Assembly (NCBI GenBank): GCA_017526525.1 | Contig: JAFXRG010000062.1 | Coordinates: 53,766-117,765, forward strand | Direction: 5' to 3' | DNA: 64,000 nucleotides | From: Clostridia bacterium | GTDB lineage: Bacteria > Bacillota > Clostridia > Christensenellales > Aristaeellaceae | Shown here: positions 35,476 through 60,886 of the stretch, in pieces | Layout of the letters: each line of letters opens with the position of its first letter | Numbering within the stretch: position 1 is the first letter of the stretch | Position numbers and translations under genes: made by a program | The notes under the pieces: model-generated | What the model was told of the DNA's origin: nothing | The model's database searches: none | Seen by the model: only the letters and a program-made list of their open reading frames with translations

Positions 35476-35485
35476 CTTTCAGGGG

Positions 35486-43064: not shown

Positions 43065-43186
43065 GTTCTTCTCCAATCCGGCTTAATGAAATAAAACTCC
43101 TAGTTTTTCAGCCCAAACTCTGCTTGTTGATTACCAGCCACATATTTTGCCATCTGCCTATGTGAGTTAACAGTTTAAGAAGATCA

Positions 43187-43501
43187 TTACTCGTTCTCTA
43201 GATATCTAACAAGTTTACCTTGCGACAAAGCATACTCTATTTCAGTTCGTGTACTTTCACCAATATACTCGCCGACATTAATCACAAAGATCTCATCGGA
43301 CATATCTATCTTCCGCTTGTGCATATCGTCCAGCATCTCCTTGGTTCCTGGCTTCCAGACTTCCTCATCCCCAGAGTGCCCGAACAGCCCAACACTGATC
43401 ACAATGTTTCCATCCAGTGTCAAGCGTTTCTGCGTCTCCATGAAAGCATCCTTAAAGCGTGTACTGCCACAGAGAGTGATCACCTTATACTTTTCAACCA
43501 T
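43187..43501 (-). CDS. Nucleoside 2-deoxyribosyltransferase-like protein
   Basis: A 104-residue protein of the nucleoside 2-deoxyribosyltransferase-like fold. It has the loop TLCGSTRFKDAF (11-20), the middle MSDEIFVINVGEYIGE and the helix ESTRTEIEYALSQGK, where Glu87 or Glu89 fits the nucleophile. Members cleave or exchange N-glycosidic bonds of nucleosides or nucleotides. The start codon overlaps the Res stop by one base (TAATG), so it is translated with the restriction operon. This short form is also known as a stand-alone conserved protein, so a household role is possible; coupling to Res argues for a defence role. Confidence 0.75.
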   Translation of the reverse strand: MVEKYKVITLCGSTRFKDAFMETQKRLTLDGNIVISVGLFGHSGDEEVWKPGTKEMLDDMHKRKIDMSDEIFVINVGEYIGESTRTEIEYALSQGKLVRYLENE

Positions 43502-46500
43502 TACATCACCTTATTCAACAGCTGCTGGAAGCTATCCACATGATCATATGTCACCACACCATTTGACAGACGATTGAAAAGCTTTTTAGCACAATCAATC
43601 TTCGCTTTTTCAATCGGTCTCAGCTCAAGGCTCTCCATTGTTCCCTTTGTCTCTGCTACAAAATAAACATGTTTTACAGTTCCTTCGTGGAATACAATGG
43701 CCCAGTCTGGAGAATAATGGCCTACAGGCGTAGGAATGGCAAACCCGCGAGGAAGTTTCGCATAAATATATACTTCCTGAGCGGCATCCATCTCCTCCGC
43801 AAACTTCCGTTCTACGCTCTTCTCTGCATTACCATCAGTATAAACATAATCCTGAATTGCTTTCTGAGCCTTGAACGCCTGATCAACTGTGCGGCCATTT
43901 TTCTCAGCGGTGAAAATGCTGCTGTCATATTCGCCCTCAATCTTATCATAGGTAATATGATCGACAATCATGGTAGCTTTCTGTTCATTGATCAGACGAA
44001 CCACTTTCCCGATAAACTCTTCCGGATTCAGCTTGAACATGTCAAATTTGTTCTGGCTAATTCCTTGCAGTATAGCCGCCGCACTTCTTCGGGTCAACAG
44101 TGAACCCGAGGCTATTTTTTCTATCAAATCATATTTGACCTGACTTCCGGCACCGCGCTTTAATGTACTCGTTTTCGTCGTCACATTACCAAACGCTTCA
44201 TTGTCGCGCATCTGATTACCCGAGATATTATCGCGCTGACTTCCTGTTGTAACCGTATACTGCAAACGAGATACAAACAATTCATTATCAATTGCTGTAA
44301 CAGCTTTACGGATCAACTCTTCTGAATCAAAATCAACAGTATACGCATACTTATGATTGATCGCCTTCCACAATGTCTGGAATGCCTCTTTATAGAACCT
44401 GTCATTCAGTGGGTTGTCCGGTGCCGGTGTCTTCTTATTACCATCGGCAAACATAGCAGCAAGCATCTTATCATCATAAACCGCCTGTACAAGTTTATGA
44501 ACCCCTTCCGCAACCGGCTGCAAACTATCTGGCATAGCAGCTAATGTATTATTTTCTACAGCATCCCGATATTCCTGAGTTATATGATCTTTATCATCAA
44601 CATAATCATTTTTAATCAGATACTTATAAATCGCACGTGCCTGCTCTGAAGATATCTTTACCTGTTCTCCCTGTTCAGTAAAAATATTCTTGCCTTCAAA
44701 ATAATCAATAGATGCGGTACGTGGGCGATCATACAAAACTTCTTTCGTCTGTTTCTGCAGATCATCCACAAAGGATGCATAGCCTTCGCTTGCAATAACA
44801 GTCAGCGTATTCAGGACTTGCACCTTTGAACCAACCATATCCGAATCCATACGATCGCCTGATTGATTCACACATAGACGTAGGCCACGGCCAACCTCCT
44901 GCCGTTTTTGAGTGGAACTATCACCGCCATGTTTCAGCGTACAAATCTGGAACACATTGGGATTATCCCAGCCTTCTCGCAATGCCGAATGCGAGAAGAT
45001 GAAGCGCGTCGGTTCATCAAAGCTGAGCAATCTTTCCTTGTTTTTCAAAATCAGATCATAAGCAGATATATCATCACTGAATTCACTGCCCCGTTTCAGC
45101 TCTGAATTCACCGCTCTGCCCGTTTTCTTATCAATACTGAAATATCCGCGATGTGTATCATGTGCCGAGATTTTATCAAGATACGCCAAATAGACTGGAT
45201 CCAATATGTTCCTGTATTCAGCCAATATAGACATGTATTCTTCCTCAAAGACACGCCCGTATTCACCATTGACTTCCAGTCCTTCATCATCATACTGTCT
45301 GTACTTCGCCACCTCATCGATAAAGAACAGAGACAACGTTTTGATACCACGATTATAATTTAATGCTTCCTTCTGCATATGAGAGATTATTGTCTCACGA
45401 ATCTGAACCCGTCTCATATCTGATTCAGACACATCACCAATCACATCGCCTTTATGAATCACAATACCATTGGCAAAAGTCACCTTTGCATTTACAGGAT
45501 CAATATCCGCAATGGTATAGTTATTCTTGTACTGCTCCATCTCATCAGAAGTACGATAAAGATCATCGCCTACTCCCAATTTGAACAGTTTTCTCTTGAT
45601 ACTGCCCCCGACCTGTCGTGCCTCTATCTCCATCCGAACCATTGGTGGATGGTTGGGAGACAAGATGAATGCCTCCAGATACATATAACCATGTGTACCT
45701 TGGAGATTCTTCACTTCAAAGCCTTTAACCTCAATCCGTTTTACCAGCTTTTTGTTATATGCATCCAAAGCATCCAACACATAAACCAGATTGTGCTGTT
45801 TTGCGTGTGTCGCAGAATAATTCAAAATGAACAATGGCTTGAACATGGCCAAAGCTTTCTGTGTCACATCGCCACCCATCTTCTGGGGCTCATCCATGAT
45901 GATGATCGGATTATTGGCAGCGATGACATCAATCGGGCGTCGGCTTCCAAACTCATCCCGTTTTGAATAAATGATTCTAGATTCCTTGCTTCTCCCATCT
46001 TCCTTCAGAGAAGCAGCGAAATTCTGGACATTAATGATCATCACATTGATTCCACTGTCTGATGAAAAACTATCGAGCTGATTCAGATTATCACTGGAAT
46101 AGATAAAGAATCGAGCCTTCTTCCCATACTGCTCCATGAAATGATCCGCAGTTATTTCAAAGGATTTTTTAACACCTTCACGGATCGCAACAGACGGAAC
46201 CACAACAATAAACTTGCTCCAGCCATAACGCTTGTTTAGCTCGAACATAGTTTTAATATATACATATGTTTTGCCAGTGCCTGTTTCCATCTCCACATCC
46301 AGGTTGCAACGTCCATGCGTTTTAATCAGAGAATCAGAGAGCCGGATATTATTCTCCGTCTGAATTGTTTGTATGTTTTTCAGCAAATCATTCTCTGACA
46401 GATGGATTCTTTCATTCAGAAAGCCTGTCTCATCGACCACATCATCATCAAAATTGATCTGATCAGACGGCAAAAAGGACAACTGTTTCTCAGAAGGTTG

Positions 46501-46641
46501 TAGTATCTTCGGCTGCTCACCGATATCACGTCTATATGATGTATCAGACACCTTCGGTTGACCTTCAAATACCCGAACCACACTATTCACTGCATCTGTC
46601 TGGAATTGCTGGATTTTAAAACGAAACTTCATTTCAGCCAT
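43501..46641 (-). CDS. Type III restriction enzyme Res-like subunit (DEAD/DEAH helicase plus nuclease)
   Basis: A 1046-residue DNA translocase-nuclease. Walker A EMETGTGKTYVYIKTM, motif II IIMDEPQKMGGD, motif III NYSATHAKQ, motif VI QKRQEVGRGLRLCVN. The C-terminal endonuclease region has a PD-(D/E)xK pattern: HYSPDWAIVF ... VYFVAETKGTME. It needs the Mod subunits for target recognition. MAEMKFRFKIQQFQ at ATG 46641 lies 1 base after the Mod stop with AAGGAAGG upstream; a longer frame from 46695 overlaps Mod and is less likely. It is followed by the deoxyribosyltransferase-like gene with a 1-base overlap. Confidence 0.9.
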   Translation of the reverse strand: MAEMKFRFKIQQFQTDAVNSVVRVFEGQPKVSDTSYRRDIGEQPKILQPSEKQLSFLPSDQINFDDDVVDETGFLNERIHLSENDLLKNIQTIQTENNIRLSDSLIKTHGRCNLDVEMETGTGKTYVYIKTMFELNKRYGWSKFIVVVPSVAIREGVKKSFEITADHFMEQYGKKARFFIYSSDNLNQLDSFSSDSGINVMIINVQNFAASLKEDGRSKESRIIYSKRDEFGSRRPIDVIAANNPIIIMDEPQKMGGDVTQKALAMFKPLFILNYSATHAKQHNLVYVLDALDAYNKKLVKRIEVKGFEVKNLQGTHGYMYLEAFILSPNHPPMVRMEIEARQVGGSIKRKLFKLGVGDDLYRTSDEMEQYKNNYTIADIDPVNAKVTFANGIVIHKGDVIGDVSESDMRRVQIRETIISHMQKEALNYNRGIKTLSLFFIDEVAKYRQYDDEGLEVNGEYGRVFEEEYMSILAEYRNILDPVYLAYLDKISAHDTHRGYFSIDKKTGRAVNSELKRGSEFSDDISAYDLILKNKERLLSFDEPTRFIFSHSALREGWDNPNVFQICTLKHGGDSSTQKRQEVGRGLRLCVNQSGDRMDSDMVGSKVQVLNTLTVIASEGYASFVDDLQKQTKEVLYDRPRTASIDYFEGKNIFTEQGEQVKISSEQARAIYKYLIKNDYVDDKDHITQEYRDAVENNTLAAMPDSLQPVAEGVHKLVQAVYDDKMLAAMFADGNKKTPAPDNPLNDRFYKEAFQTLWKAINHKYAYTVDFDSEELIRKAVTAIDNELFVSRLQYTVTTGSQRDNISGNQMRDNEAFGNVTTKTSTLKRGAGSQVKYDLIEKIASGSLLTRRSAAAILQGISQNKFDMFKLNPEEFIGKVVRLINEQKATMIVDHITYDKIEGEYDSSIFTAEKNGRTVDQAFKAQKAIQDYVYTDGNAEKSVERKFAEEMDAAQEVYIYAKLPRGFAIPTPVGHYSPDWAIVFHEGTVKHVYFVAETKGTMESLELRPIEKAKIDCAKKLFNRLSNGVVTYDHVDSFQQLLNKVM

Positions 46642-46642
46642 C

Positions 46643-48643
46643 TCACAGCACCTTCCTTTCCGTCTGAGGCGAATATGTCCTGAAGATTTGATCAAAATTT
46701 GTTACCACACTATCGCTAGCCATACCACTATCCCGGAACACAGCATAATACGGTTTCATTTTTGCAATTTCAGTAACTGTCTCCGCGGTAACACCCTCAT
46801 CAAAACAGACTACTAAATAGGCAGCATCCACATCAGCCGGTTTAACAATAAACACTTTTTTCCCCGCTATAATCCGTTCCTCAATTGCGCTTGACAAATC
46901 CACACCCAAATCCAACATTACCTGGAAAAGCAGATCTTCCGATGTGCGATCTAGTTTAATATTGTCAACAGTTCTACCCAGGAGATCCCTGCTCAATTCA
47001 TCCGGATTATAATACACGTCTTCCATGTTGCTGGAATCCAACCTCAGAACGCGGAACCCAATATCCAGATCTGGCGCTGTCAAACCAGCTTCTTCTTTAA
47101 TCTTTTTCCCTGCACGACGGATTCGTTCTTTACCTATTTCACAAATATTTTTGAAACCTTCTTTGTAAGCATCTGAATCCTCACTGCATTTTTCTGGAAT
47201 TTGCACTAAGATATAATGACACTTAATCCCTTTTTCAAATTGTAGTTGCATAACAGAGTCAGCAGTTGATGCAGACCCCGAGAAAAAGTCCAAAATAATA
47301 TCTCCATCCTCAATCCTGCATATTTCAGCTAAATACTTCATTAATGAAGAGGGTTTTGCAAAGGGAAAAGGTATTTTGAGTTTGGACAATTCATGTGTAG
47401 CATTTTGATTAATGTGATCCTCAATAAAGCTGTTAGGAGTCGCTGTTGATTTATTTATCACATCTTTAAGATATGTTTTTGTATAAGCATTCCAAGTTGT
47501 TTCTGCGCCATTAACACCAACAACATTTGATGACCTTCCTTGTTTCAAAACTATCTGATCTCTTTTCTCTAGATAAGACTGATATGACCACCTCCATATT
47601 TTATCTTTTCCGCTCTGAGGAGCAACGAACGCACCATCTTTTATTTCATTAGGATAGGTTTCTCCTGGTGGTATGATGAAAGATCCATCTGGGCACTCGA
47701 TGTAATACCTTTGATTTGTACAGCCTCGCATTGGATCGAGATTTGACATATAGAGACGCACTAACTGATATTTTTCACCCTTACGAGGGCCGTCTTGTTC
47801 AATCTGATTATATGATTTTTCATTCATTCCACCGAGAAAAGGAGGACATAGCAATTTGTTTCGTGCATAAGTCAATAAATAATCAAAATTGGGTGCCCAA
47901 TAATCTCCTTGATTATTTGCTTTCTTTGTTATTCTACCAGCGCATCCAAGGAAGTTGCTTTCCCCATATATTTCACTGCATATTTTTTTAAGATCATCAA
48001 CCTCGTTATCATCAATACTAATGAATATTACACCATCATCTGTTAGAAGGTTTTTTGCTAGTTTTAACCTGGAATACATCATATTAAGCCAATTCGTATG
48101 AAAGCGACCATTTCTTTCTGTATTTTGCTCTAAACGATTTCCTAGATCGTCAAACTGTCCACTGCGACATAAGTATTCTTCTGTATTCTCAGCAAAGTCA
48201 TCTTCATACACAAAATCATTCCCTGTATTATACGGGGGATCTATGTATATCATCTTGACCTTTCCTAGATATGTTTCCTGTAACAGCTTTAATACATCTA
48301 GATTGTCACCCTCGATATACAGGTTCTGACTGTCCCAACCGCCAGGTGTACCATCTTTCCCAACGCTCTCTTCTCTTACCGGCCTAAGCGTTGCTGCAAT
48401 TGGTGCATTTGCTGTCAAAACAGCCTTTTTCTTATCTGGCCAGGTAAACTGATACCGTTCTTCCCGGCCTTCTACGACACGAGTAGAAATCTCTTGCATC
48501 AGAACATCTTTATCAATTGCTCGAACAACCTCACCGGTTGCCGGATCAATCGATTCAGTAATAGCATTCGGAAATAAAGCTGCTAGTTTTTTGAAGTTAA
48601 TATCCGCTTGATTCGTAGTATGCATTTTCATCATATCCATCAT
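46643..48643 (-). CDS. Type III DNA methyltransferase Mod-like, copy 2
   Basis: A 666-residue adenine-N6 methyltransferase of beta type: motif IV IYIDPPYNTGNDFVYEDDF (D135-Y138) before motif I ILDFFSGSASTADSV. The N-terminal about 220 and C-terminal about 170 residues closely match copy 1 (GWDSQNLYIEGDNLDVLKLL; the identical end FDQIFRTYSPQTERKVL). The middle, which in type III enzymes recognises the DNA target, differs strongly (ITKKANNQGDYWAPNFDYLL onward). The start overlaps the copy 1 stop by 4 bases. One Res serves both. Confidence 0.9.
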   Translation of the reverse strand: MMDMMKMHTTNQADINFKKLAALFPNAITESIDPATGEVVRAIDKDVLMQEISTRVVEGREERYQFTWPDKKKAVLTANAPIAATLRPVREESVGKDGTPGGWDSQNLYIEGDNLDVLKLLQETYLGKVKMIYIDPPYNTGNDFVYEDDFAENTEEYLCRSGQFDDLGNRLEQNTERNGRFHTNWLNMMYSRLKLAKNLLTDDGVIFISIDDNEVDDLKKICSEIYGESNFLGCAGRITKKANNQGDYWAPNFDYLLTYARNKLLCPPFLGGMNEKSYNQIEQDGPRKGEKYQLVRLYMSNLDPMRGCTNQRYYIECPDGSFIIPPGETYPNEIKDGAFVAPQSGKDKIWRWSYQSYLEKRDQIVLKQGRSSNVVGVNGAETTWNAYTKTYLKDVINKSTATPNSFIEDHINQNATHELSKLKIPFPFAKPSSLMKYLAEICRIEDGDIILDFFSGSASTADSVMQLQFEKGIKCHYILVQIPEKCSEDSDAYKEGFKNICEIGKERIRRAGKKIKEEAGLTAPDLDIGFRVLRLDSSNMEDVYYNPDELSRDLLGRTVDNIKLDRTSEDLLFQVMLDLGVDLSSAIEERIIAGKKVFIVKPADVDAAYLVVCFDEGVTAETVTEIAKMKPYYAVFRDSGMASDSVVTNFDQIFRTYSPQTERKVL

Positions 48644-50540
48644 AATACCTTCCTTTCTGTCTGCGGAGAATATGTCCTAAAAATCTGATCGAAATTAGTT
48701 GCCACACTATCGCTAGCCATACCACTATCCCGGAACACTGCATAATATGGCTGCATCTTTGCAATTGCTGTCACCGTCTCACTTGTGACGCCCTTGTCAA
48801 AGCAAGCAATCAAATATTCTCTATCAACACCTTCTGGTTTGACCATAAACACAGTTTTTCCATCAATAACCTGTTCTACAATAGAACTTGACAGATCTAC
48901 TCCCAGATCCAGCATTACCTGGAACAACAGATCTTCAGGAGTACGATCAATCTTTATATTGTCCACTGTTCTTCCCAACAGATCCCTACTCAACTCATCC
49001 GGACAATAATATACATCTTGCATATTGCTTGAATCCAAATGCAACACACGGAAGCCGATATCAATAATTGGTTCAATCAGACCATTCTCTTTTTTCAACT
49101 CCTGCCCAGCTCGACGAATGCGTTCTTTTCCTATCTCGCACAAATCTCTAAATCCAGCCTTATAAATGGTAGTACCTTCTTTTATAGCCTGATTAATCTG
49201 CACCAAGATAAAACGCCTACAACTATTGGTTTTTATGTTTGATTGCATTACAGCATGAGCAGTTGTTGCGGATCCTGAAAAGAAGTCAAGAATAATATCA
49301 TCCTTTGTCGTTATCCATTCAATTATTCTTGTCATAATATCCAAGCTTTTTTCCGTATCAAATATTGTATATGAACCCGTCATCATTATGTCCATCCAAT
49401 TATCGCTAAGCAACTTTCCTGTTTGCGGCGGGACATAATACTGTATTTTGCCCTCATATTCTCTAAGAAAATCAGGCTTGTTTCCTGTTGTCATATACAT
49501 GAAAGAAAAGTAATCATCTATATCATTATATTCATTTTGATTCAAATAATCCTTGTAGTTTTGTATTGCTCTATCGGCTCTCCCTTTTTCCCATCTCCAT
49601 TGACCTGTTTCTGGTGTTTTTCCAAAAAGCTGATATCTCATAGTTGGTCGATCAGTTCCACGCCAAAAAGTATCCCATTTCCCTTGCTTTGTTTCCGCAA
49701 ACTCATTTGATAATTTTGGCAATCTACTATCAGTACGCTTTGCATAGAATAATAAATATTCATGTCCTTGTGACAACGATGAAACGGTTTCGAATTGTGC
49801 TTGTACATTCTTTATGCCACGTCGAACAGCGATGATATTCCTTTGGTTTTCTTCACCAAATACTTCGTTGCATATTTTTATCATGTTATCAACTTCATTT
49901 TCATCGATACTAATGAAAATAAAGCCATCATCTGACAGTAGATTTTTTGCGATCTTTATTCTTGGATATATCATATTTAACCAGTCTGTATGGAATCGTC
50001 CGTTGCTCTCCTTGTTTTGAACCAATCGATTACCCGCTTTATCATATTGACCACTATGAGATGAATAATCAGTCATTCTTTCGGAGAAATCATCTTCATA
50101 TACAAAATCATTTCCTGTATTATATGGTGGATCTATATAGATTAGCTTTATTTTTCCCAGATATGCTTCCTGTAGCAATTTCAAGACATCCAAGTTATCG
50201 CCTTCAATATAGAGATTATGACTATCCCACCCCCCTGGCGTTCCGTCCTTCCCAACGCTCTCTTCTTGGACTGGCCTTAACGTCGCCGCAATTGGTGCAT
50301 TTGCTGCCAGTACTGCCTTCCTCTTATCCGGCCAGGTGAATTGATACCGTTCCTCCCGACCTTCTATTACATTTGCAGAAATCTCCTGCATTAGAATGTC
50401 TTTATCAATAGAACGTTCCACTATTGCTTTGCCATTTTCATCATAACCAGTAATAGACTCAGTAACGGCATTGGGGAACAATTCCGATAGTTTACGGAAG
50501 TTTTCATCGGCTTGATTTGGCGTGTGCATTTTCATCTTTT
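46650..50540. repeat. Tandem paralogous gene pair: conserved ends, divergent centres
   Basis: The first about 660 and last about 500 bases of the two mod genes are clearly alike at DNA and protein level, while the middle 700-800 bases are not. The pattern indicates duplication of one mod gene and replacement of the target-recognition region in one copy. Confidence 0.8.
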
Positions 50541-50544
50541 CCAC
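48640..50544 (-). CDS. Type III DNA methyltransferase Mod-like, copy 1
   Basis: A 634-residue adenine-N6 methyltransferase. Motif IV is IYIDPPYNTGNDFVYEDDF (D138-Y141), motif I ILDFFSGSATTAHAVM. The central target-recognition part (NIIAVRRGIKNVQAQFETVS to about residue 420) differs from copy 2. GTG 50544 sits after AGGAGG at a normal distance; ATG 50535 is too far. It lies 41 bases after the DUF4365-like gene and overlaps copy 2 by 4 bases (ATGA). Confidence 0.9.
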   Translation of the reverse strand: MEKMKMHTPNQADENFRKLSELFPNAVTESITGYDENGKAIVERSIDKDILMQEISANVIEGREERYQFTWPDKRKAVLAANAPIAATLRPVQEESVGKDGTPGGWDSHNLYIEGDNLDVLKLLQEAYLGKIKLIYIDPPYNTGNDFVYEDDFSERMTDYSSHSGQYDKAGNRLVQNKESNGRFHTDWLNMIYPRIKIAKNLLSDDGFIFISIDENEVDNMIKICNEVFGEENQRNIIAVRRGIKNVQAQFETVSSLSQGHEYLLFYAKRTDSRLPKLSNEFAETKQGKWDTFWRGTDRPTMRYQLFGKTPETGQWRWEKGRADRAIQNYKDYLNQNEYNDIDDYFSFMYMTTGNKPDFLREYEGKIQYYVPPQTGKLLSDNWMDIMMTGSYTIFDTEKSLDIMTRIIEWITTKDDIILDFFSGSATTAHAVMQSNIKTNSCRRFILVQINQAIKEGTTIYKAGFRDLCEIGKERIRRAGQELKKENGLIEPIIDIGFRVLHLDSSNMQDVYYCPDELSRDLLGRTVDNIKIDRTPEDLLFQVMLDLGVDLSSSIVEQVIDGKTVFMVKPEGVDREYLIACFDKGVTSETVTAIAKMQPYYAVFRDSGMASDSVATNFDQIFRTYSPQTERKVL

Positions 50545-50585
50545 GGGCGTATCCTCCTAACACTCTTTTTTAGGACGTCTGATTC

Positions 50586-52394
50586 CTAGGCAATAAAATG
50601 ATAAATTGGGTATTGCATTAACTCATCTTGGGTGGCTCTTGGGAAAGAATCAAAATGTTTTTTCGCAATCTCTTTCTTTCCGAGTAATGCATTAGCTGCA
50701 AACAATACATCTTTTCTTTCGGGTGAAGATGCGATCATTCCATAAAGTACTCCTCGCTCCTCGTCTGATAAAGTTCGCTGCCTTATGAGTATTTGGAGAC
50801 GGTTCAATGTCGCAATTCTTACATCCCAGACATCATCGGGTATAGTCATCAACCATTCTGCAATTTCCAAAGCGGTATTGAGTAAGATACTTCTCTTCTT
50901 TCCTTCCAGCTTGTCTGCTGCCATTATCATACGGAGCATTATGTCATTCGCAACGGCGTAAGTATGTTCATTCACAGGGAAGTTTTTTATTGTAGGAAGA
51001 ATTCTTTCATACTTAATATTTGAAAGCGCCACATAATCATCTGGTTTAAATATAGCACATATCGGGACCGGAAATACTTCACTATGATCGGGCGGAGAAA
51101 AAACTACATCTTGGCAATCTTGAATATGGCACAGATTATATACTCCATCTTCTCCATCAACCCGTGTTAATCCGACTCCAAATTTAAGCGAGCCAACACT
51201 CATTGCCATAGCAAAAGCCATATCGTTTTGTAAACCGTAAACTGGCTTCCCTTCAAGCGTAGCCTGTGCAAGACGTTCCATGTTTCTCCAGTCTTCATTA
51301 GAGAATGCTGAATAATCAACATCGTCTTGGCAACCTTGTATATCCATCATTTTCACATAGCGCTGGAGTAATTCATAATCTTTTATAAATGCTTCAAGAC
51401 TTATGTTACAAGACTCAAAATCATCCTGGGTAAAGTCAAGAAGCATATCATTGATTTTGAATTGTTTTGACCTGATAAAGGAAATCATGAATGGTGCATC
51501 ATCAACAAATTTACGAATCATATGTGAAGCTTTAAAGTTGACTTTACAGCCTGGAGTATCATTCCTTATTGTCATTGTAAATCCATGACCAATATGTACA
51601 ACACTCTCCTCAAGGCTTTCGACAACTTTATATTGTGTATAGAAAACAATCCCTTCGGAAGAAACCGTATTCGGTACAACAGTCGAAACAACTTTATGTA
51701 CCATCTCTCCTTCAAATTTGACAGGTTGAGGGATTGCTGCACCTTTAATGCGAACATATAAAGGTGTGTCAAGCTTTAGGAAACCGTGGATACTCTTATA
51801 TTCTTCACCATAACCAGATACAAAGAACTGAATTTCATCAATTAACCCCTTTTCTTCCAATTCTTTGATTGTGGGAAGCTCAATACCCGCAAAACTGGTT
51901 TGACGTTTACAATTATGGAAACAATTAAGAATCAAGGAGGCAAAGTCATCCGGATTGGACGGCAATGCTTTCAAATGTAAAGTTACACTCTGTTGTATTA
52001 CTGGACATTCGGAGATAAGAGCTGAAATACGGATGGGTGTCAATTCTGCGTAGTAGATTTTGTAATTAAAATCTGTGTGCTCTGCATTTGGAGAAAGATA
52101 CACTACAAACAGAATTGCACCAGCATCGTTCAGATAATTCCGAAGATGTGCAATTTCAATGCTATAAGAGATTTCATTTTTGCTAAAGTCATTTGTTTCA
52201 TGACCTTTAACTTGTGCTGGTAATCGACCGGTCAAGTTGTCTTTTGTTTTCTTTTCGTTGCTATAAATGTACACAAAACCATCCCAAGATGGAGTCTTAT
52301 CATTACTATCCAAATATGATGACAAATACTTTGTAAGATTGATTCGCGTCTGAACTTTGCTAATTGCTTCTCTTTCAATCTGAAGGCTGTCCAC
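50586..52394 (-). CDS. DUF4365-like protein (putative PD-(D/E)xK-type N-terminal domain)
   Basis: A 602-residue protein. The first about 150 residues look like DUF4365: EREAISKVQTRINLTKYL, PSWDGFVYIYSNE, and a strand RLPAQVKGHE that together resemble the D...(E/Q)xK pattern of nuclease folds; then SYSIEIAHLRNYLNDAGAILFVVYL. The remaining 450 residues are unfamiliar. GTG 52394 follows AAGGAGG at a good distance and overlaps the DUF4391 gene by 20 bases. Suggested role is DNA recognition or cleavage inside the restriction operon, by context only. Confidence 0.65.
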   Translation of the reverse strand: MDSLQIEREAISKVQTRINLTKYLSSYLDSNDKTPSWDGFVYIYSNEKKTKDNLTGRLPAQVKGHETNDFSKNEISYSIEIAHLRNYLNDAGAILFVVYLSPNAEHTDFNYKIYYAELTPIRISALISECPVIQQSVTLHLKALPSNPDDFASLILNCFHNCKRQTSFAGIELPTIKELEEKGLIDEIQFFVSGYGEEYKSIHGFLKLDTPLYVRIKGAAIPQPVKFEGEMVHKVVSTVVPNTVSSEGIVFYTQYKVVESLEESVVHIGHGFTMTIRNDTPGCKVNFKASHMIRKFVDDAPFMISFIRSKQFKINDMLLDFTQDDFESCNISLEAFIKDYELLQRYVKMMDIQGCQDDVDYSAFSNEDWRNMERLAQATLEGKPVYGLQNDMAFAMAMSVGSLKFGVGLTRVDGEDGVYNLCHIQDCQDVVFSPPDHSEVFPVPICAIFKPDDYVALSNIKYERILPTIKNFPVNEHTYAVANDIMLRMIMAADKLEGKKRSILLNTALEIAEWLMTIPDDVWDVRIATLNRLQILIRQRTLSDEERGVLYGMIASSPERKDVLFAANALLGKKEIAKKHFDSFPRATQDELMQYPIYHFIA

Positions 52395-53049: not shown

Positions 53050-53116
53050 CCTTACCTCCTGTTTTTCTTACTCCTGTCTTGGACCTTTTCTGTAATTAAT
53101 GGTTCTTTTCTGGTTG

Positions 53117-53896
53117 TTATATCGTATCTTCTTCAAACCAGAAGTCTTCTTCCATTGTTGGCAAATCAGTATCAAAGAGAGCTACTCCATCATCATATAT
53201 CTGCTCTATTCTCTTACTCCTCGAAATAATACTTCCGATGATTGAATCAGAGTTTGTATATTCATCAGACATGTGGTAGAAATAGGACCATTGAGCGCGA
53301 TCCTGGCGAAACAACGCATGCCATTCCAACATAATGCTGGATATGCTTTCACTATTAAATAGAATGCTGCATGTCTGCTTTTCAAGGTCTCTTGAAGTAC
53401 CAAAGTGTACCGTTTCCATCATGTAATAGTCCTCGGGTGGATCGTATCCCTTACGGTTATCATCGCTTATCCAGCCACTACCTTGAATCTTATCAGCTAC
53501 GTTTTTGCTTTGATTATGAGAATTGCTATGTGACACCGATGCAAAAAGGCAATACTCATCTTTGTAAGTGATAATCAGCAGCAACGGATACGTATATGCT
53601 TCAAATACCGCTTTTGCAAATTCATTTATGGGATACCAACCATCAGATCGAGTCTTTATTTCTATTTCCATAACATGGATTTCGTTTTCAGACTGATCCT
53701 TCTCCGTAATCCTCGGCAGATCTCCTCTGGTGCTTCTTAACACATACGACAATGTAGCGTTTTCAAAATACAGCGAAAACCGATATTGTGCACTGGGTTT
53801 AATCCGACCATTTTTCAGAAAGGCATCCTTGGGAATGGAACGGTCAAGCTTACATGCATCCGGTAGATGCTGATACAAAACAATCGACGATTTCAT
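53117..53896 (-). CDS. Second DUF4391-like protein
   Basis: A 259-residue protein, distantly like its neighbour: DACKLDRSIPKDAFLKNGRIKPSAQYRF parallels TELNKRIPKQKFYENLQISPAL, and TYPLLLIITYKDEYCLFASVSH parallels the HILFILEFNGKVQAWIG strands. The C-terminus is acidic (MEEDFWFEEDTI). ATG 53896 lies 2 bases after the helicase stop; a longer frame to 53920 overlaps it. Probably a duplicated and diverged subunit. Confidence 0.65.
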   Translation of the reverse strand: MKSSIVLYQHLPDACKLDRSIPKDAFLKNGRIKPSAQYRFSLYFENATLSYVLRSTRGDLPRITEKDQSENEIHVMEIEIKTRSDGWYPINEFAKAVFEAYTYPLLLIITYKDEYCLFASVSHSNSHNQSKNVADKIQGSGWISDDNRKGYDPPEDYYMMETVHFGTSRDLEKQTCSILFNSESISSIMLEWHALFRQDRAQWSYFYHMSDEYTNSDSIIGSIISRSKRIEQIYDDGVALFDTDLPTMEEDFWFEEDTI

Positions 53897-53898
53897 CT

Positions 53899-56800
53899 TT
53901 ATTTCACCACCAAGAAGCAAATCAGTTCAAAATCATCCAACCCACTGATGGTGTTTAATCCTATTGTTGTCCCGCCTGGCTTGAACAGGCTGTCCAAGTC
54001 GCTTTCTTCTTTTGTGTCAATAATTGAATCGATTGCCTCCGAAAGCAATTGAGACATTCTATTCATCTTTCTTCCGTCTTCAGTTTCGTCGTTGAATAAT
54101 TGATAAACTTCCTTGATTGGCTTGCTTTTTCCACGGCAAAGGAGCCGCATATCATCCAACAGTTTCTTTGGATTCAAATAATCGCAGATTACTTCACCGC
54201 TATCCGAGATGTAGACCATATAGAATGGGTGGATACGGTTTAGGTTGTCAATATTAACTCCTTCATTGCGGTTCTTTAATACAAAGATTACTCCTCGCGG
54301 AAGATCATCGGTCGCAGGGACGACGGCATGCATACCGAAAGGCTTTTGGTCGAGATCGCCGTGATTCTTGATGTAATCCAATAAGTCTAACCTGAACTCA
54401 TTGAGACCCAGATCCATGATAGAAATGCCAGTAGACATTTCCTCAATATCTACGACTTCTTCCTGCAATTTCTGAAGCTGTTGCTTGCGATATTCCAGAT
54501 CTCCTTTTTCTTCCGCATTAATGAGATCATCATCACCGGTGGACGTCATTACTGAGATCTTCATTCGGGTTTCAACCCTTGATTTCAAATTAATGTAGTC
54601 ATCCAGGGTCATGTCCGGCCAGAAGTTGACAAGTTGAATAACGGCGTTTTTACTGCCGATACGATCAATTCGACCAAACCGCTGAATGATGCGTACTGGA
54701 TTCCAATGGATATCATAATTCACAAGGTAATCACAGTCCTGTAGGTTTTGCCCTTCAGAAATACAGTCGGTACCAATTAAGATATCAATCTCGTTCCGGC
54801 TTCCAGGCATCAATACATCACGGTTTTTAGAAATCGGCGAGAAACATGTCAGGATATTATTCAGGGTGCCCTTCAAACCCTTGATAGTGCTCTTTCCTTC
54901 AACAGCGCCGGATATCATTGCTGTATTCAGTCCATGCTTTTCTTTGGCATAGCGGCTGACATTCTCATATAGATAGTCAGCCGTATCAGCAAAGGCAGAA
55001 AAGATCAGTAGCTTTTTGTTGCCCGCATTTATTGGGTTTTCGATCTTTTCAGTTATCATCTTGAGCAGGGTCTGAAGTTTTGTATCATGCTCAGGAGTAA
55101 TATCAGCCACCATGGATATGAGTAAGGCCAATGTATCGGCATCGCGCTGAAGAACATTTCTCCATGACTTATAGTCCATATCGTTCAGGTCAATTTTTGA
55201 CTTGTTACCCACGGTGAAGAAATCTGTATTTTGATCTTCCAGATCATAATCGGAAGTGTCTGTGTTCAGCTCAATTGCATCTAGGATCCCCATGCCATTT
55301 TGCTCGAACTGATCAATGGTCTTTAGTGTTCCAAGGATCAAATCACGAATACGGCTTAAAGTCAATTTGAAAGAGTAAACAGAGCTTTCCAGGCGCTTTA
55401 AGAGATTCACGCTCATCAACCGCTGAATACCTCTTTCACGCCCTTCCCGGGAAAGGTTTTTATTCTTTGTCAGATCAACATATTTGTCGATTTTGCTCGG
55501 GAAGATAAATGCAGAAGGCGTGTAGATCTCCAATGTCAGAGACATCAGTTCTTCAAAGATTTCGTTATAGTTGATTGCGTTTGGAAGATCGGTAAGATTA
55601 GGACGAAGCGAGATGGGCTTGAGCCTATCTGGAAACTTGCCAATTTCTTCTGTATTGTAATAGCGTTCAATATGTTTCCTGGATCTCGCGATTGTTACGC
55701 TGTCCAGAAGCTCGAAGAAATCGAAGTCCAAACGATGCAGGAGGTTATCAGTTGTCCTTTCGGCTGCTTCCAGTTTGCTCCAGGCATTAAATGCGGTTTG
55801 TGCCTGCCTGAAGATCTCATCAATGGATTTTGTTGTATCCAGCTGCTTATCTATCAGATCAGTATCCCCTTCATAGGCTAGGGCAAGCTGATTGCGCAAA
55901 TCATAAAACCGATTATTTACAGGTGTCGCAGAGAGCATCAATACTTTCGTTTTTACGCCAGCTTTGATAACTTTCCGCATCAGGATCTCGTACCGGTTTT
56001 CACCTTCTCCTTTATGTGTACCAGCACCGCCTGCTCCATTGCGGAAATTATGTGATTCATCAATAACTATCAGATCATAATTACCCCAGTTAAGGCGATC
56101 AAGATCCAAGCCATTGGATTGACCTTGTGTGCGTGAAAGATCCGTATGAAAAAGGACATCGTAATTAAGCCGATCTGAGGCGATTGGATTGTTCACATAG
56201 TTGTCTTTATACGTGTTCCAGTTCTCGGATAGTTTTTTTGGGCACAGAACAAGCACTGATTTATTTCTGTTTTCATAGTACTTAATGACCGCCAAAGCTG
56301 TGAAGGTTTTACCAAGGCCTACGCTGTCTGCAAGAATGCATCCATTATATCGTTCTAGCTTATTGATAATTGCCAGGACAGCATCCCGCTGGAAATCATA
56401 CAGTAAAGACCATATCTTGCTTTGTTTAAATCCTGTGGCTTCGTTTGGCAGTACGTCCTCGGATATATCATCTAAGAATTCACTGAAAACATTGTATAAG
56501 GTGATGAAATAGATTAACTCTGGGGCATTCTCATTAAATGCAGTGGTTATATTCTCGATGATGGTATCTGTGACATCCTGCAATTTGTCTCGGTCGTTCC
56601 ATACGGTGTTAAAAAGCTGCAAGTAAGTGCTTGCTACAGGAGCATCATCGATCCGATTGACCATGTTGTAGACATTGTTTCCTCGTTCACATCCCAGATC
56701 AGCTGTGGTAAACCCAGTTATGGGCATATATACAACTTGTTCTTCTGCTCCCGATACGGTCATGAACGACCCCATATTATCTCCGGAAACATTTGATTTA

Positions 56801-57144
56801 AACCTGGCCTTTTTTCGAATCCACTCGGCACATTCTTTAGCGATTGCCCGTTGTGTCATTTCGTTGCGAAGCTTCACTTCGAATTCTGTTCCATAGAGAC
56901 TTTGTTCGCGTGTTCTTCTGGGAATATAAAACTCTCTGCGTTGCTTTGATTCTCTTTCAACAACAAACGTCGGCGATGTGAAGATAAATCGGAATTCATC
57001 AACGCTTTCTAGCTGCTTTTTCAGTTCCCTGTATGCGTACATAGAGAAAAAAGCCGCAGCAATAGAAACTTTATCCCCGCGTTTTACTGTTCTGGCAATG
57101 TCATCGCGAAGAATCGTTGTGACATTATCAATAACTTTAATCAT
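53899..57144 (-). CDS. SNF2-family helicase with N-terminal phospholipase-D-like region
   Basis: A 1081-residue ATP-dependent DNA translocase. Residues 1 to about 230 resemble PLD-type regions (VSIAAAFFSMYAYRELKKQL), but no HxK catalytic motif is visible there. Walker A LADSVGLGKTFTALA (273-280), motif II LIVIDESHNFRNG, motif III VLMLSATPVNNRF. Motifs V-VI are GTDCISEGQNLQDCDYLV and IQRFGRIDRIGS. It starts with an 8-base overlap to the upstream unknown gene. In the operon it may scan DNA or remodel the Mod/Res complex; the role is inferred from context. Confidence 0.88.
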   Translation of the reverse strand: MIKVIDNVTTILRDDIARTVKRGDKVSIAAAFFSMYAYRELKKQLESVDEFRFIFTSPTFVVERESKQRREFYIPRRTREQSLYGTEFEVKLRNEMTQRAIAKECAEWIRKKARFKSNVSGDNMGSFMTVSGAEEQVVYMPITGFTTADLGCERGNNVYNMVNRIDDAPVASTYLQLFNTVWNDRDKLQDVTDTIIENITTAFNENAPELIYFITLYNVFSEFLDDISEDVLPNEATGFKQSKIWSLLYDFQRDAVLAIINKLERYNGCILADSVGLGKTFTALAVIKYYENRNKSVLVLCPKKLSENWNTYKDNYVNNPIASDRLNYDVLFHTDLSRTQGQSNGLDLDRLNWGNYDLIVIDESHNFRNGAGGAGTHKGEGENRYEILMRKVIKAGVKTKVLMLSATPVNNRFYDLRNQLALAYEGDTDLIDKQLDTTKSIDEIFRQAQTAFNAWSKLEAAERTTDNLLHRLDFDFFELLDSVTIARSRKHIERYYNTEEIGKFPDRLKPISLRPNLTDLPNAINYNEIFEELMSLTLEIYTPSAFIFPSKIDKYVDLTKNKNLSREGRERGIQRLMSVNLLKRLESSVYSFKLTLSRIRDLILGTLKTIDQFEQNGMGILDAIELNTDTSDYDLEDQNTDFFTVGNKSKIDLNDMDYKSWRNVLQRDADTLALLISMVADITPEHDTKLQTLLKMITEKIENPINAGNKKLLIFSAFADTADYLYENVSRYAKEKHGLNTAMISGAVEGKSTIKGLKGTLNNILTCFSPISKNRDVLMPGSRNEIDILIGTDCISEGQNLQDCDYLVNYDIHWNPVRIIQRFGRIDRIGSKNAVIQLVNFWPDMTLDDYINLKSRVETRMKISVMTSTGDDDLINAEEKGDLEYRKQQLQKLQEEVVDIEEMSTGISIMDLGLNEFRLDLLDYIKNHGDLDQKPFGMHAVVPATDDLPRGVIFVLKNRNEGVNIDNLNRIHPFYMVYISDSGEVICDYLNPKKLLDDMRLLCRGKSKPIKEVYQLFNDETEDGRKMNRMSQLLSEAIDSIIDTKEESDLDSLFKPGGTTIGLNTISGLDDFELICFLVVK

Positions 57145-57934
57145 CTTCTGTTCCCTCGTCAGTTGTTATAAATGGAGACTCCTCGTCGTTTACTATGTAA
57201 TTTTGATTCCATTGGAGAGTCCAGGCTCTCTTTTTCTTGTTATTTTCTCGAAACTCATCTTCCGATACGAACACATTGGGAATCGAGAGCCGAATTTCAG
57301 TATACTCAGCTACGCTTGATATTTCGACTTCATTGCATCTTGACAAATGTTTCATTAATGAAGAAACATCATCGATCTGCCCAAGGAGGAGATGCTTCAA
57401 CTTAATGATCAGCTGAGCTGCTTTAACATCTTCACCAAAGAAATGTCCATCAATTGAAAGATTATATTTATCTTTGCGTTCGAAAAAGTATTTTAAGAAC
57501 ATCACATACTTGTGCATTTGGAAAGGAATTACAAGCAAGTTTTCTTCTTGATAAGCACGTTGGATGGAATTCCAAATATCCGGATAGTTTTCTTTAAGCC
57601 ATTTTTTATCAAAATAGGCCTTTTGTATCCGTTTGCGATATTTTGCAAGGCTGGCAACAGCCCATTCCAGTGGAAAGCTGCTATTCGAATCATCATAATG
57701 ACGCTCAACAATACCGTTTAGCAAATGGAGAATAGTCCCGTCGTTTATGTCTTTATTTGTGCTTCTAAGTTCATCTATTCCGGACACAAACTCTTCTATC
57801 TCAAGCCATTTAACGAGCTCTTGATTTTCCATGAACGTTTTTCCAAAGATGTAGCTTCGTCCTTTTCCATCAAAGATCACTTGTGCTCCCTCCTTTCCTT
57901 TGAAGTCAAACTTACGCAAAGCTGGCAAAATCAA
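57137..57934 (-). CDS. Unknown defence-operon protein A
   Basis: A 265-residue protein with no domain that I recognise. It starts at TTG 57934, overlapping the upstream stop as TTGA (coupled translation). The N-terminus LPALRKFDFKGKEGAQVIFDGKGRSYIFGKTF is beta-rich, then helical segments (EWAVASLAKYRKRIQKAYF, AAQLIIKLKHLLLGQIDDVSSLM). The end is acidic. It overlaps the SNF2 gene by 8 bases, so its product is likely made in equal amount with the helicase and may bind it. Confidence 0.6.
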   Translation of the reverse strand: MILPALRKFDFKGKEGAQVIFDGKGRSYIFGKTFMENQELVKWLEIEEFVSGIDELRSTNKDINDGTILHLLNGIVERHYDDSNSSFPLEWAVASLAKYRKRIQKAYFDKKWLKENYPDIWNSIQRAYQEENLLVIPFQMHKYVMFLKYFFERKDKYNLSIDGHFFGEDVKAAQLIIKLKHLLLGQIDDVSSLMKHLSRCNEVEISSVAEYTEIRLSIPNVFVSEDEFRENNKKKRAWTLQWNQNYIVNDEESPFITTDEGTEDD

Positions 57935-59040
57935 TATCTTGCCAGCTCGATATTCAACATTTTCTGCTCAGTGTTTACTTTCTGAAGCTTTTCTTGTAAT
58001 GAAGACTCGTTCTTATATCTTTCTGTTATCGCGGGATCATCTGGAATCAGGAATCCATTTGTAATACAACCGGGCAAAGCAAATTGTCTTTCTTTTCCAG
58101 CAGCTGAGAAGGTTAAATATTCTCCGTCCTGTTTGCTGATGGTCACTTCTCCGTAAAGCTTTGTTTTTATTGTTTTTCCTTCAAAGCGGTACTGTGGAAG
58201 CTCTGCGATTTCCTTTTCAAGAGCGTCCATCTCATCCTGAAGCTTTTCTAATCGGTCTTGAAGCTCCGAAGCTCTTTTTTCACGTTCTGCCTGGGACGAG
58301 TCTCCAGATTTTCCTGTTTTACGAGGCGCAGGCTCATAAAGCCCATCTCTCATAAACTTATAAACGCCAAAGCAATAGATCAGATCAGTTACCAGAATGT
58401 GATGACTTTCATCCTTCCAGTTTACTTTTCGTTCTGAATCCTTAGCCAGCAATTCAGGGCATGCTTCAACTTCTGCCAGCAATTCATCGCACATCTGATA
58501 GTAAAATTTCAGTTTAAAGTTCGCACCATATCCAATATCAGTATCAAAGTCCATATACCTGGCAAAATAATGAGCAGGAGTGGACTTAAACAAATAATTC
58601 CGAGACGGAATGATTAGAGCTAAATATGTGATAGCAACCCGCACATCATGGGTGTATTTCCATTTCCCCGGAAAATGCTTTTCAAGCAGACCGTTTATAT
58701 CATCAACAAAACGAAGAATATTATTCTGCTTTTCATCCAGATCTTCTGTCTCAGTTAGGAGACTCTCCAATGCTTTACGAACTGCTTCTGGCTCCTCTTT
58801 TGCAAGCAACGCCAATCCATTTCCGGGAGATACTATCCGGTTGTTGATCAGATTAAAAGTCTTTGAAAAGGAACGTCTAATCATTCCCGAAAGATCTGGC
58901 GCAGCCAAATCCCATTCTTTTTGAACCTGTTCAACAGCCTCCCACTTGTAGCTTTCATATCCATCCTGGTTGGGATTTTGAAAGTATCCAAAGTGATCAA
59001 TATAGTTCCGGAAAAGAAGATCAATGTTTTGCTTGTTCAT
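57931..59040 (-). CDS. Unknown defence-operon protein B with coiled coil
   Basis: A 369-residue protein. Helical N-terminal two thirds (NIDLLFRNYIDHFGYFQNPNQDGYESYKWEAVEQVQ; SRNYLFKSTPAHYFARYMDFD). A coiled coil lies at about 250-285 (SELQDRLEKLQDEMDALEKEI), and a small beta domain follows (KTKLYGEVTISKQDGEYLTFSA ... FALPGCITNGFL). ATG 59040 is 6-7 bases after GGAG; ATG 59043 is too close. No family recognised. It sits 12 bases after the DUF262 gene. Confidence 0.62.
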   Translation of the reverse strand: MNKQNIDLLFRNYIDHFGYFQNPNQDGYESYKWEAVEQVQKEWDLAAPDLSGMIRRSFSKTFNLINNRIVSPGNGLALLAKEEPEAVRKALESLLTETEDLDEKQNNILRFVDDINGLLEKHFPGKWKYTHDVRVAITYLALIIPSRNYLFKSTPAHYFARYMDFDTDIGYGANFKLKFYYQMCDELLAEVEACPELLAKDSERKVNWKDESHHILVTDLIYCFGVYKFMRDGLYEPAPRKTGKSGDSSQAEREKRASELQDRLEKLQDEMDALEKEIAELPQYRFEGKTIKTKLYGEVTISKQDGEYLTFSAAGKERQFALPGCITNGFLIPDDPAITERYKNESSLQEKLQKVNTEQKMLNIELARY

Positions 59041-59052
59041 CATGTTCTCCTT

Positions 59053-60795
59053 TTACTTTGCCAGGTCATTGTCACGAAGATAGTTGATAAAGGCATCCAG
59101 AATTATTTTTTGCCGGTTCAGAATGTCTTTTTCAGTAAAATCAGCATTTGTTTCCGCAAGTTCACGGAGTTCGACTACTTTTGTTCCTTCTTTTACCTGA
59201 CCGCGCTTGTTAATGTACCCCTTATAGTAATTTGCTTTGTCGGCAAACCGATAATCAGAGGCACGAATGTTTACCCGCTTTTCCAGAAGCGCTTTATTTC
59301 CCAGCTTCTCAACGTAGCGTGGATTTGAAAGCGGGTTAGTGGTCTCTTTTTCGTTGCGGTTTCTTGCATAAATGTGTTCAATCTCAAGAACGGTTTCCAT
59401 TGGGAAAAGTGGCTGCTCCGGCATGGTGTAAGCCCACCATGTCAGCATAGCCTTCGTAATAGGACGCATATTATAAAAATCGAAAAGTTCAAAGCGATTT
59501 CGGACAGCATCTAAATCAAACTTGTTTTCTTTGAACTCAACAGGGATGTTGTTCACAATATTAATCATTTCGGCGTATATCGGTGTACGGAGCATGTTAA
59601 CACCAGGATTGGTTACAGCGTATGTCCAAACGAAAGCGATTGTCTTATCTAGGAACTTCAGGAAGGCTTCATCCTCAAGCATTCCATCCGCATCCTTATT
59701 CTGCATGTAATATACTGAGACAAAATAAGTCCACATGCCGTTAGGAGCATAGTTCAGGACATAGAGCTTCCGGAGAATCTCATAGGAAAAACGTTCATTA
59801 TTCTGGTTTGAGACATCATTCCAAAAGTTTGCCAAACCAATCAAATTGTCGAAAACGCCATCGGTTTTTAACAGCTTATATGAATCTTTCTCATAAAATC
59901 GGCGCAAAGCTTCTGTTGTTGATGAGCTTATTCCTTGTTTAGCCCTCTCATAATACATGTATCTGGTAAACAGTTCGTCCATAGGCGTTCCACGGAGAGG
60001 ATGAAAAATCTTCTCAGCCAGGGCTTCAAGATCCTTCCATTTTTCAATGAACAGATCCTTCTCACCCTTGGCAGAATATATTTTATAAAACTGCGCTTTG
60101 AAAATATCAGAGTCCGAAAGAGGGAGTCCACGATCGTTGAGCGTGGAGAAAATACGTAGCGCGGTATCCTGTGTTTCTGCTTCAATTGGCAACAGGATAC
60201 AGTTGTTCATAATCCGTGCCGGGAGATATGCGGCATAGGACGGCCATTCACTGCAGAATTTTTCAATCTTTTCCACAAAGAATCTGAATACGCTGGCATA
60301 TTTGCTTTTGTATTCTTTTTTCACTTCTCCTGTGCGTAGGATTGTCATAAACTCTTCTTTATCATCGTCTGTAGAGACCTGAGAATCAATCTTCAATTGA
60401 TCCATTTTCAGGTTTCCGAATTCATCTGTTTTCCAGATACATTTTGAAATGGAATTCCTAATACCCTGTGAATTGTCATCTTTCATATTCAGGAATTTGG
60501 TATAAAACGCACGGAGCATAAGCATCAGCGTTGTTAATCTCTGCTGACCGTCGATGATTTCAAGCTTTCTTTCATTTTTATATGTGACGATAGGCCCCAG
60601 AAAATACTCGTCATCTGGGTTGAACTTGTCACAGGAATCATCAGGGAAAGAAAACGCAAAAATATCATCCCATAAAGTCTGACATTCTGTTTCGCCCCAG
60701 GCATAAGGCCGTTGATAATCCGGAATCAGGAAATCAGATTTCTTATCCGAAAAAAGCTGGTAGATCGTTTGCTGGTCGATGTTAAGCTTAGACAT
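59053..60795 (-). CDS. DUF262/DUF1524 nuclease (GmrSD-like)
   Basis: A 580-residue protein of the GmrS-GmrD fused type, associated with restriction of modified (for example glucosylated) DNA. DUF262: FLIPDYQRPYAWGETE (residues 23-36) and LEIIDGQQRLTTLMLML (D82, R85), the nucleotide-dependent part. The C-terminal DUF1524 HNH-type block is LEIEHIYARNRNE ... KLGNKALLEKRVN. ATG 60795 is chosen; the TTG at 60837 has no ribosome binding site. It is the first gene of the eleven-gene operon. Confidence 0.88.
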   Translation of the reverse strand: MSKLNIDQQTIYQLFSDKKSDFLIPDYQRPYAWGETECQTLWDDIFAFSFPDDSCDKFNPDDEYFLGPIVTYKNERKLEIIDGQQRLTTLMLMLRAFYTKFLNMKDDNSQGIRNSISKCIWKTDEFGNLKMDQLKIDSQVSTDDDKEEFMTILRTGEVKKEYKSKYASVFRFFVEKIEKFCSEWPSYAAYLPARIMNNCILLPIEAETQDTALRIFSTLNDRGLPLSDSDIFKAQFYKIYSAKGEKDLFIEKWKDLEALAEKIFHPLRGTPMDELFTRYMYYERAKQGISSSTTEALRRFYEKDSYKLLKTDGVFDNLIGLANFWNDVSNQNNERFSYEILRKLYVLNYAPNGMWTYFVSVYYMQNKDADGMLEDEAFLKFLDKTIAFVWTYAVTNPGVNMLRTPIYAEMINIVNNIPVEFKENKFDLDAVRNRFELFDFYNMRPITKAMLTWWAYTMPEQPLFPMETVLEIEHIYARNRNEKETTNPLSNPRYVEKLGNKALLEKRVNIRASDYRFADKANYYKGYINKRGQVKEGTKVVELRELAETNADFTEKDILNRQKIILDAFINYLRDNDLAK

Positions 60796-60886
60796 TGTGC
60801 CATCGTCCTTCCGCGTTTTAGTTGTCCGTGAATTCAATCCCGGTCATTTTTTTCTTGGCTTTTTATCCCTGCTGTAAAGAATCGTC

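Follow-up and report, generated by a model that had tools for sequence, protein, structure and literature searches.

We analysed a 64,000-nucleotide stretch of the Clostridia bacterium assembly GCA_017526525.1 (contig JAFXRG010000062.1, positions 53,766 to 117,765; hereafter the window), which carries a predicted defence operon built around type III restriction. The operon spans positions 43187 to 60837 and consists of eleven open reading frames (ORFs) with short spacings, all encoded on the minus strand; a first-pass annotation of the DNA had already described eleven genes on one strand, and its reading of them as a coupled defence operon built around type III restriction is right. Four of the genes constitute what we judge to be a widespread four-gene variant of type III restriction, in the order of an SNF2-family ATPase (1081 amino acids [aa]; 53899..57144), a DUF4391 protein (224 aa; 52375..53049), the N6/N4 methyltransferase ModB (666 aa; 46643..48643), and the helicase-endonuclease Res (1064 aa as the longest ORF; 43501..46695); the seven others are local. 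With the longest starts, the spacings range from a 53-base overlap between ModB and Res to a 67-base gap. The 67-base gap had already been given, and the 20-base overlap named as the other extreme holds only with shorter starts; the ModB/Res overlap would nearly disappear if Res begins at an internal ATG. The longest ORF of the outermost gene, encoding GmrSD, starts from a TTG at 60837, and its first ATG, at 60795, was the upper limit in the first-pass annotation.

The SNF2 protein matches the PADLOC model C3a139 ("HKD+Snf2") over its full length with 419 bits, together with the Pfam families SNF2-rel_dom and Helicase_C, and a fold search with a low-confidence structure model recovered the helicase core. 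Its N-terminal PLD-like region is degenerate, with the HKD motif gone, so that the earlier name "SNF2-PLD" is right in its first half and describes a degenerate region in its second. The score against the NCBIfam model of the anti-phage PLD-helicase, NF042964, is 125 bits, with a cut-off of 1100. In a survey of 136 SNF2 proteins, including three paralogues (L020 to L022; loci are numbered with L throughout), an intact HKD motif (HxK...GSxN) was present in one of the 101 from complete operons, and the window protein and 99 others are without it. The Walker A, DESH, and QRFGR helicase motifs are near invariant in the proteins where HKD has degenerated. Because the PLD nuclease motif is lost and the motor is kept, the SNF2 protein would likely be a double-stranded DNA translocase. 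In Escherichia coli NCTC11023 (L200:9172-9336), the gene before SNF2 is a short helix-turn-helix gene that bears the annotation MAD1, from the methylation-associated defence system, and a helix-turn-helix regulator likewise precedes SNF2 in L199.

The core DUF4391 protein matches the whole PF14335 model with 192 bits, and its AlphaFold2 model (mean predicted local distance difference test [pLDDT] score of 95) displays an alpha/beta domain with a C-terminal helical hairpin, for which a comparison with the PDB gave no match at E <= 0.001. DUF4391 appears in PMC7784981 only as a table entry. ModB matches PADLOC MTase_III with 655 bits and contains DPPY at residue 135 and DFFSGS at 452. A second methyltransferase, ModA (634 aa; 48640..50544), is a local addition; the two window proteins match N6_N4_Mtase (PF01555) with 107 and 85 bits. 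Comparison of ModA and ModB revealed identity in 37/40 columns at residues 80-119 versus 5/40 at 277-300, and such proteins, alike at their ends and divergent in the middle, would be consistent with two specificities sharing one Res. Res matches PF04851 (ResIII) and PF19778 (RE_endonuc) above cut-off and PADLOC REase_III with 967 bits, and contains the TGTGKT and DEPQ motifs; against the NCBIfam equivalog PRK15483 it reaches 363 bits, below the cut-off of 564. These features are shared with the type III restriction-modification enzymes EcoP15I and EcoPI, in which Mod also carries N6/N4 methylase motifs, with the divergent middle seen here between ModA and ModB, and Res combines an SF2 motor with a C-terminal endonuclease domain. 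SNF2 and DUF4391 are two further constant genes by which the window family differs from them, along with the cargo gaps flanking Mod.

The loci compared comprised close relatives (from 12 of 300 family genomes, the source genome included), 28 viral-contig loci, the best 80 of at least 567 SNF2 relatives in species genomes, and regions found by searching for DUF4391 first. L014, L018, L019, L020, L021, L022, and L050 (fragments, flank or paralogues) and the repeats L176, L181, and L192 were dropped before counting, leaving 143 loci (4 relatives, 27 viral, 80 species-genome, and 32 DUF4391-first). Near-repeats stay among the 143, which form 134 clusters at 95% SNF2 identity, 102 of them with a complete operon. 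Comparison of these loci revealed that conservation as a unit extends to SNF2, DUF4391, Mod, and Res only, rather than to all eleven genes of the first-pass annotation: the four genes are complete, on one strand, and in this order in 105 of the 143 loci, none of the 143 shows another order, and the stretches examined contain no core gene in the opposite orientation. Twenty-nine of the 38 incomplete loci are cut by a contig edge no more than 2 kb from the part that is missing, and nine have room (L041, L017, L128, L061, L043, L047, L049, L182, and L194). The core of L061, from a Bacillota metagenome-assembled genome, is complete, with two consecutive Mod-Res pairs after a single SNF2-DUF4391 pair. 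The DUF4391 profile used for the order counts made no call in L043, L047, L049, L182, and L194; another profile called DUF4391 in L043, and L182 and L194 have Pfam DUF4391 matches, that of L194 being a short remnant. By record title, the 80 species-genome loci come from what we take to be Bacillota, Bacteroidota, Pseudomonadota, Actinomycetota, Verrucomicrobiota, Planctomycetota, Spirochaetota, Synergistota, and other phyla. SNF2 relatives were also found in 123 plasmid records (97 covering 80% of the query), and 88 of 5426 E. coli genomes contain any DNA match (23 covering 80%).

Because 111 of these loci had been found through SNF2, a search starting from DUF4391 was run. Pfam DUF4391 matched in 34 of 398 phylum genomes (source genome included) and in none of 14 control genomes, yielding 35 regions from 33 other genomes, three of which repeat systems already found via SNF2. 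SNF2, Mod, and Res are all present in 29 of the 35 regions, and the other six end at contig edges, which bears out the earlier remark that DUF4391 recurs beside SNF2 and Mod/Res. Across 91 operons, window included, pairwise protein distances correlate for all six core pairs (r 0.64-0.81), and no permutation of 999 was as high. The correlation is 0.81 for SNF2-Res, 0.79 for Mod-Res, 0.78 for SNF2-DUF4391, and 0.64 for SNF2-Mod, with host relatedness uncontrolled. Median identity over the same operons is highest for SNF2 (0.60), 0.45 for Mod, and lowest for DUF4391 (0.27); Res identity is widely spread among SNF2 pairs at 0.6-0.8 identity, so that some exchange of Res takes place.

Analysis of the junctions indicated that SNF2 and DUF4391 are nearly always adjacent, with a median gap of 4 bases and a gap of >400 bases in 8 of the 105 complete operons, versus 46 for DUF4391/Mod (Fisher p 1.4e-9) and 36 for Mod/Res (p 2.5e-6). 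When one locus per 95% SNF2 cluster is taken, the open junctions number 8, 45, and 36 in 102 complete operons. This near-constant adjacency suggests that SNF2 and DUF4391 form a stoichiometric pair. An internal gap of >400 bases is present in 59 of the 105 complete operons, and the gaps beside Mod carry other cargo, in which toxin and abortive-infection families are well represented. Cargo of 241 proteins was reduced to 219 by dereplication and a 90 aa limit, and the scan covered every one of the 116 internal proteins and 81 of the 103 outer ones; among the internal entries, that of L043 is its own DUF4391 and two of L126 sit between two SNF2 genes. The internal proteins matched RhuM (8), AlbA_2 (7), Abi_C (6), Fic (6), AAA_21 (4), SMC_N (4), YhcG_C (3), PDDEXK_3 (3), GmrSD_N (2), Zeta_toxin (2), and SIR2_2 (2) in Pfam, and nine to ten of them matched the PADLOC candidate-system models PDC-S05 or PDC-S23. 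The 81 outer proteins matched AAA_21 (9), AAA_13 (8), and GmrSD_N (6). A control set of 116 neighbours was drawn at random out of 755 proteins encoded outside the operons; in this set, RhuM, AlbA_2, Abi_C, and Fic occur at most once each, and the remainder belong mostly to unrelated families.

In the window operon, the internal slot holds a DUF4365-like protein and the second Mod, and an upstream group consists of GmrSD, U370, and U265. GmrSD (594 aa; 59053..60837) is a single-chain, predicted type IV-like nuclease of DUF262 and DUF1524/HNH composition, with GmrSD_N (PF03235) at 138 bits, GmrSD_C (PF07510) at 37 bits, and the motifs DGQQR and IEHI...LGN (HNH-type). U370 (370 aa; 57931..59043) matches no family above cut-off in Pfam, NCBIfam, or PHROGs. 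Its N-terminal 200 residues recur in larger proteins of the EVE and McrB-type AAA kind, AAA_5 being present in eight and EVE in seven (one sub-threshold) of the ten scanned. U265 (265 aa; 57137..57934) is an orphan that matches no family above cut-off in Pfam, PADLOC, NCBIfam, or PHROGs and for which neither 298 other phylum genomes nor the viral contigs yielded a homologue. The second, diverged DUF4391 (267 aa; 53117..53920) matches PF14335 with 64 bits over positions 3-136, and L013, from the same genus, likewise has a diverged second copy; more than one DUF4391 was called in 2 of the 105 operons, one of them (L188) with broken genes, and more than one Mod in six. The DUF4365-like protein (602 aa; 50586..52394) is encoded between DUF4391 and Mod, nested in the manner of PrrC. 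It scores 23.2 bits against PF14280, just under the cut-off of 24.3, matches phrog_9827 over its full length, and contains a D...QVKG motif, which we take to be PD-(D/E)XK-nuclease-like; a 39% homologue occupies the same slot in L016. The family names of the first-pass annotation thus agree with Pfam for GmrSD, both DUF4391, both Mod, and Res, are just sub-threshold for DUF4365, and find no database support for a deoxyribosyltransferase.

The ORFs of 118 loci were surveyed for the local genes by profile or single-sequence searches, with a simple gene caller that misses some overlapping genes. U370 was found in one locus, DUF4365 in one, and GmrSD in three to four, and no U265 or deoxyribosyltransferase-like protein was found among the called ORFs of the 118 loci. 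The first-pass annotation had proposed co-occurrence of the eleven families as a check on the unit, to be given up if the genes varied independently in homologous loci; the seven non-core genes do vary in this way, being absent from nearly all homologous loci examined, and the two genes that it had called unknown, U370 and U265, are not kept with the helicase.

The relevant passages of PMC8259958, from 2021, describe Eco86II, BspHIV, and more than 500 genomes in which a further ATPase gene lies on the 5' side of mod; they report that the Eco86II ATPase is dispensable for methylation and unseen in the active enzyme fraction, and that Mod alone gives full methylation. We found the Eco86II locus as the SNF2-Mod-Res operon of L220:7500-16917 (E. 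coli NCTC8623; 963 aa SNF2 and 1040 aa Mod, beside satellite-phage-like genes), which is present at 98.9% in three NCTC86 records and also in B4103-1 and F9792. In the same passages, B4103-1 and F9792 host GAGCC specificity like Eco86II, and five of six strains, Acinetobacter excepted, have one putative type III system. The BspHIV locus was not located, and the comparison is with the Eco86II locus only. Eco86II resembles the window family in having an SNF2-type ATPase gene ahead of mod and res, but its ATPase matches the window SNF2 in helicase-core stretches only (28-29%) and groups with the SNF2 of L202 (46%), which is 26% identical to that of the window; moreover, it is without a DUF4391 gene, and its Mod of 1040 aa shows 25% identity over ~400 residues. 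Nor does the window have the ATPase directly before mod: two DUF4391 genes and the DUF4365 gene stand between SNF2 and the first Mod, and DUF4391 separates SNF2 from Mod in 105/105 complete operons. Four consecutive genes in L202:3708-13617 (E. coli STEC309) encode SNF2, a DUF262/DUF1524 protein, Mod, and Res, and the GmrSD-type gene at the place of DUF4391 hints that other proteins can fill the adaptor place. A run of SNF2, AAA ATPase, S8 peptidase, methylase, and helicase genes is present in L221:7513-18276 (E. coli 214-4), a stretch that starts at a tRNA-Phe with an integrase.

DISARM (DrmD) and BREX (BrxH) likewise have an SNF2-type helicase next to a methylase. A PADLOC scan covered ten of the eleven window proteins, and the matches listed consist solely of cross-matches between SNF2 and helicases and of matches between Mod and type II/III methylases. 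The BREX ATPase BrxC and PglZ are not among these matches, where BREX is represented only by BrxH cross-matches of SNF2, and Pfam and NCBIfam name other families; the score of the window SNF2 against the DrmD equivalog is 146, versus a cut-off of 610. The PADLOC and NCBIfam scans therefore support the earlier statement that the set is not BREX, DISARM, or plain type III. The relevant passages of PMC12839542 describe type-2 BR (BREX-related) systems with an HKD domain N-terminal to a Swi2/Snf2 helicase, as here, but the HKD nuclease is held there to be the effector, with DUF499 and DUF3780, whereas the window family has lost HKD and has DUF4391, Mod, and Res as partners. The four-gene unit is absent from the relevant passages of PMC12839542, PMC10853773, PMC12458937, PMC2292703, and PMC11514479, and no name or tested function for SNF2-DUF4391-Mod-Res was found in the open-access literature searched.

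Judged from sequence comparison, the operon probably encodes a mobile restriction system derived from type III, which has SNF2, DUF4391, Mod, and Res as its four subunits and is accompanied by further defence genes of local occurrence. Family membership makes the restriction part secure: Mod would mark the cell's own DNA and recognise unmarked sites, at which Res would cut. The SNF2-DUF4391 adjacency, the loss of HKD, and the retention of RE_endonuc in Res point to SNF2 as probably the motor, with Res as the nuclease. SNF2 and DUF4391 would act as a tight pair, in which DUF4391 is probably the adaptor docking SNF2 on Mod-Res, and SNF2 would most likely feed, clear, or patrol double-stranded DNA for restriction. 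The gaps flanking Mod and the operon ends may take interchangeable effectors, in the window the PD-(D/E)XK-like DUF4365 protein, the second Mod of putatively other specificity, and the GmrSD type IV nuclease. By analogy with PrrC in EcoprrI, these effectors would most likely serve as a back-up in the event of a blocked core or of modified phage DNA. Relevant passages of PMC3710099 and PMC12707154 describe PrrC, RhuM, and Doc as neighbours of restriction genes, so nested toxins are an already known theme. EcoprrI shares with the window the toxin-type genes inside a restriction operon, but the host system is here type III-derived, with a helicase and an adaptor, and the likeness is one of gene arrangement alone.

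Several observations weigh against this four-subunit restriction system. The discovery of 111 of the 143 loci via SNF2 is compounded by gene profiles built from part of these loci, and the distance correlations could partly mirror host relatedness. In L041:52-8015, the gene after an SNF2 that retains an intact HKD encodes a protein of ~1560 aa, and no DUF4391, Mod, or Res lies within the next 10 kb; L017 retains remnants of SNF2 and Res only, with DUF4391 and Mod absent, and Res was not found in the 4.3 kb past Mod in L128. The DUF4391 fold comparison yielded no function, and the control neighbours hold some defence families too (AAA_21 2, NACHT 2). In addition, the dispensable ATPase of Eco86II, as described in those passages of PMC8259958, implies that the SNF2 of the window family may be accessory.

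An unlikely alternative is that the SNF2-DUF4391 pair serves methylation, its motor moving Mod or clearing proteins for full self-marking, as has been proposed for the pairs of DarB-like methylase and SWI2/SNF2 of mobile elements. The loss of the SNF2 nuclease motif would suit such a role, as would the rank of SNF2 as the most conserved of the four proteins (median identity above that of Mod), and PMC5512222, in its relevant passages, proposes SNF2-assisted methylation for a methylase-SNF2 dyad in another setting. However, SNF2 distances are tracked best by Res, not Mod (0.81 vs 0.64), and the full methylation by Mod alone in the relative Eco86II also argues against it (PMC8259958, relevant passages).

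More tentatively, the core may be a guard platform, in which DUF4391 would sense the state of Mod-Res/SNF2 and release a gap effector (Fic, RhuM, Schlafen-like, Abi_C, DUF4365, or GmrSD) when a phage blocks restriction; we regard this as improbable overall. If true, one four-gene chassis would carry interchangeable abortive effectors across many phyla. The arrangement raises two testable questions, namely what a second motor, of SNF2 type, is retained for in a type III enzyme and whether the lodged toxins guard the operon, and the operon gaps flag spots where undescribed effectors may turn up.

It is slightly less probable still that the window holds an ordinary two-gene type III system in a defence island, with SNF2-DUF4391 as a separate defence clustering with it. 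Mod and Res do score like ordinary type III proteins, Mod-Res without SNF2 exists (for example, L201 in E. coli), and Eco86II cuts without its ATPase according to the relevant passages of PMC8259958. Yet island clustering alone would shuffle the order, which is fixed across many phyla with zero loci reordered; a partner is missing from the 35 phylum DUF4391 regions only at contig ends, and the correlated distances of the core proteins also speak against separate defences. A single obligate machine made up of the eleven genes together, as their shared strand and short spacings might suggest, is very improbable, since seven of the eleven are missing from nearly all homologous loci examined and the deoxyribosyltransferase-like gene often turns up elsewhere in the family.

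This last gene (104 aa; 43187..43501) is a neighbour probably outside the system. Its product matches no family in Pfam, PADLOC, NCBIfam, or PHROGs, and the deoxyribosyltransferase-like label is putative. The gene was identified in 24 of the 150 family genomes searched (source included), with a second copy on contig C44 of the source genome, and tblastn located it after Res in L013. The operon lies in a stretch of low guanine-plus-cytosine (GC) content, ~0.40-0.41 from ~34000 to 64000 versus 0.58 in the first 34 kb of the window, and six further stretches of the source genome have a GC content of 0.52-0.60. The GC drop is near a tRNA-Arg(CCT) at 35402-35476, and the low GC persists up to the contig end, which is the window end; a second copy of the tRNA-Arg end was looked for and none was found. 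Adjoining the operon, the gene at 40743-43076 encodes a protein of 777 aa that contains three stretches of C-type lectin and two of Big_2 and is in part similar to sequence elsewhere on the contig (L232).

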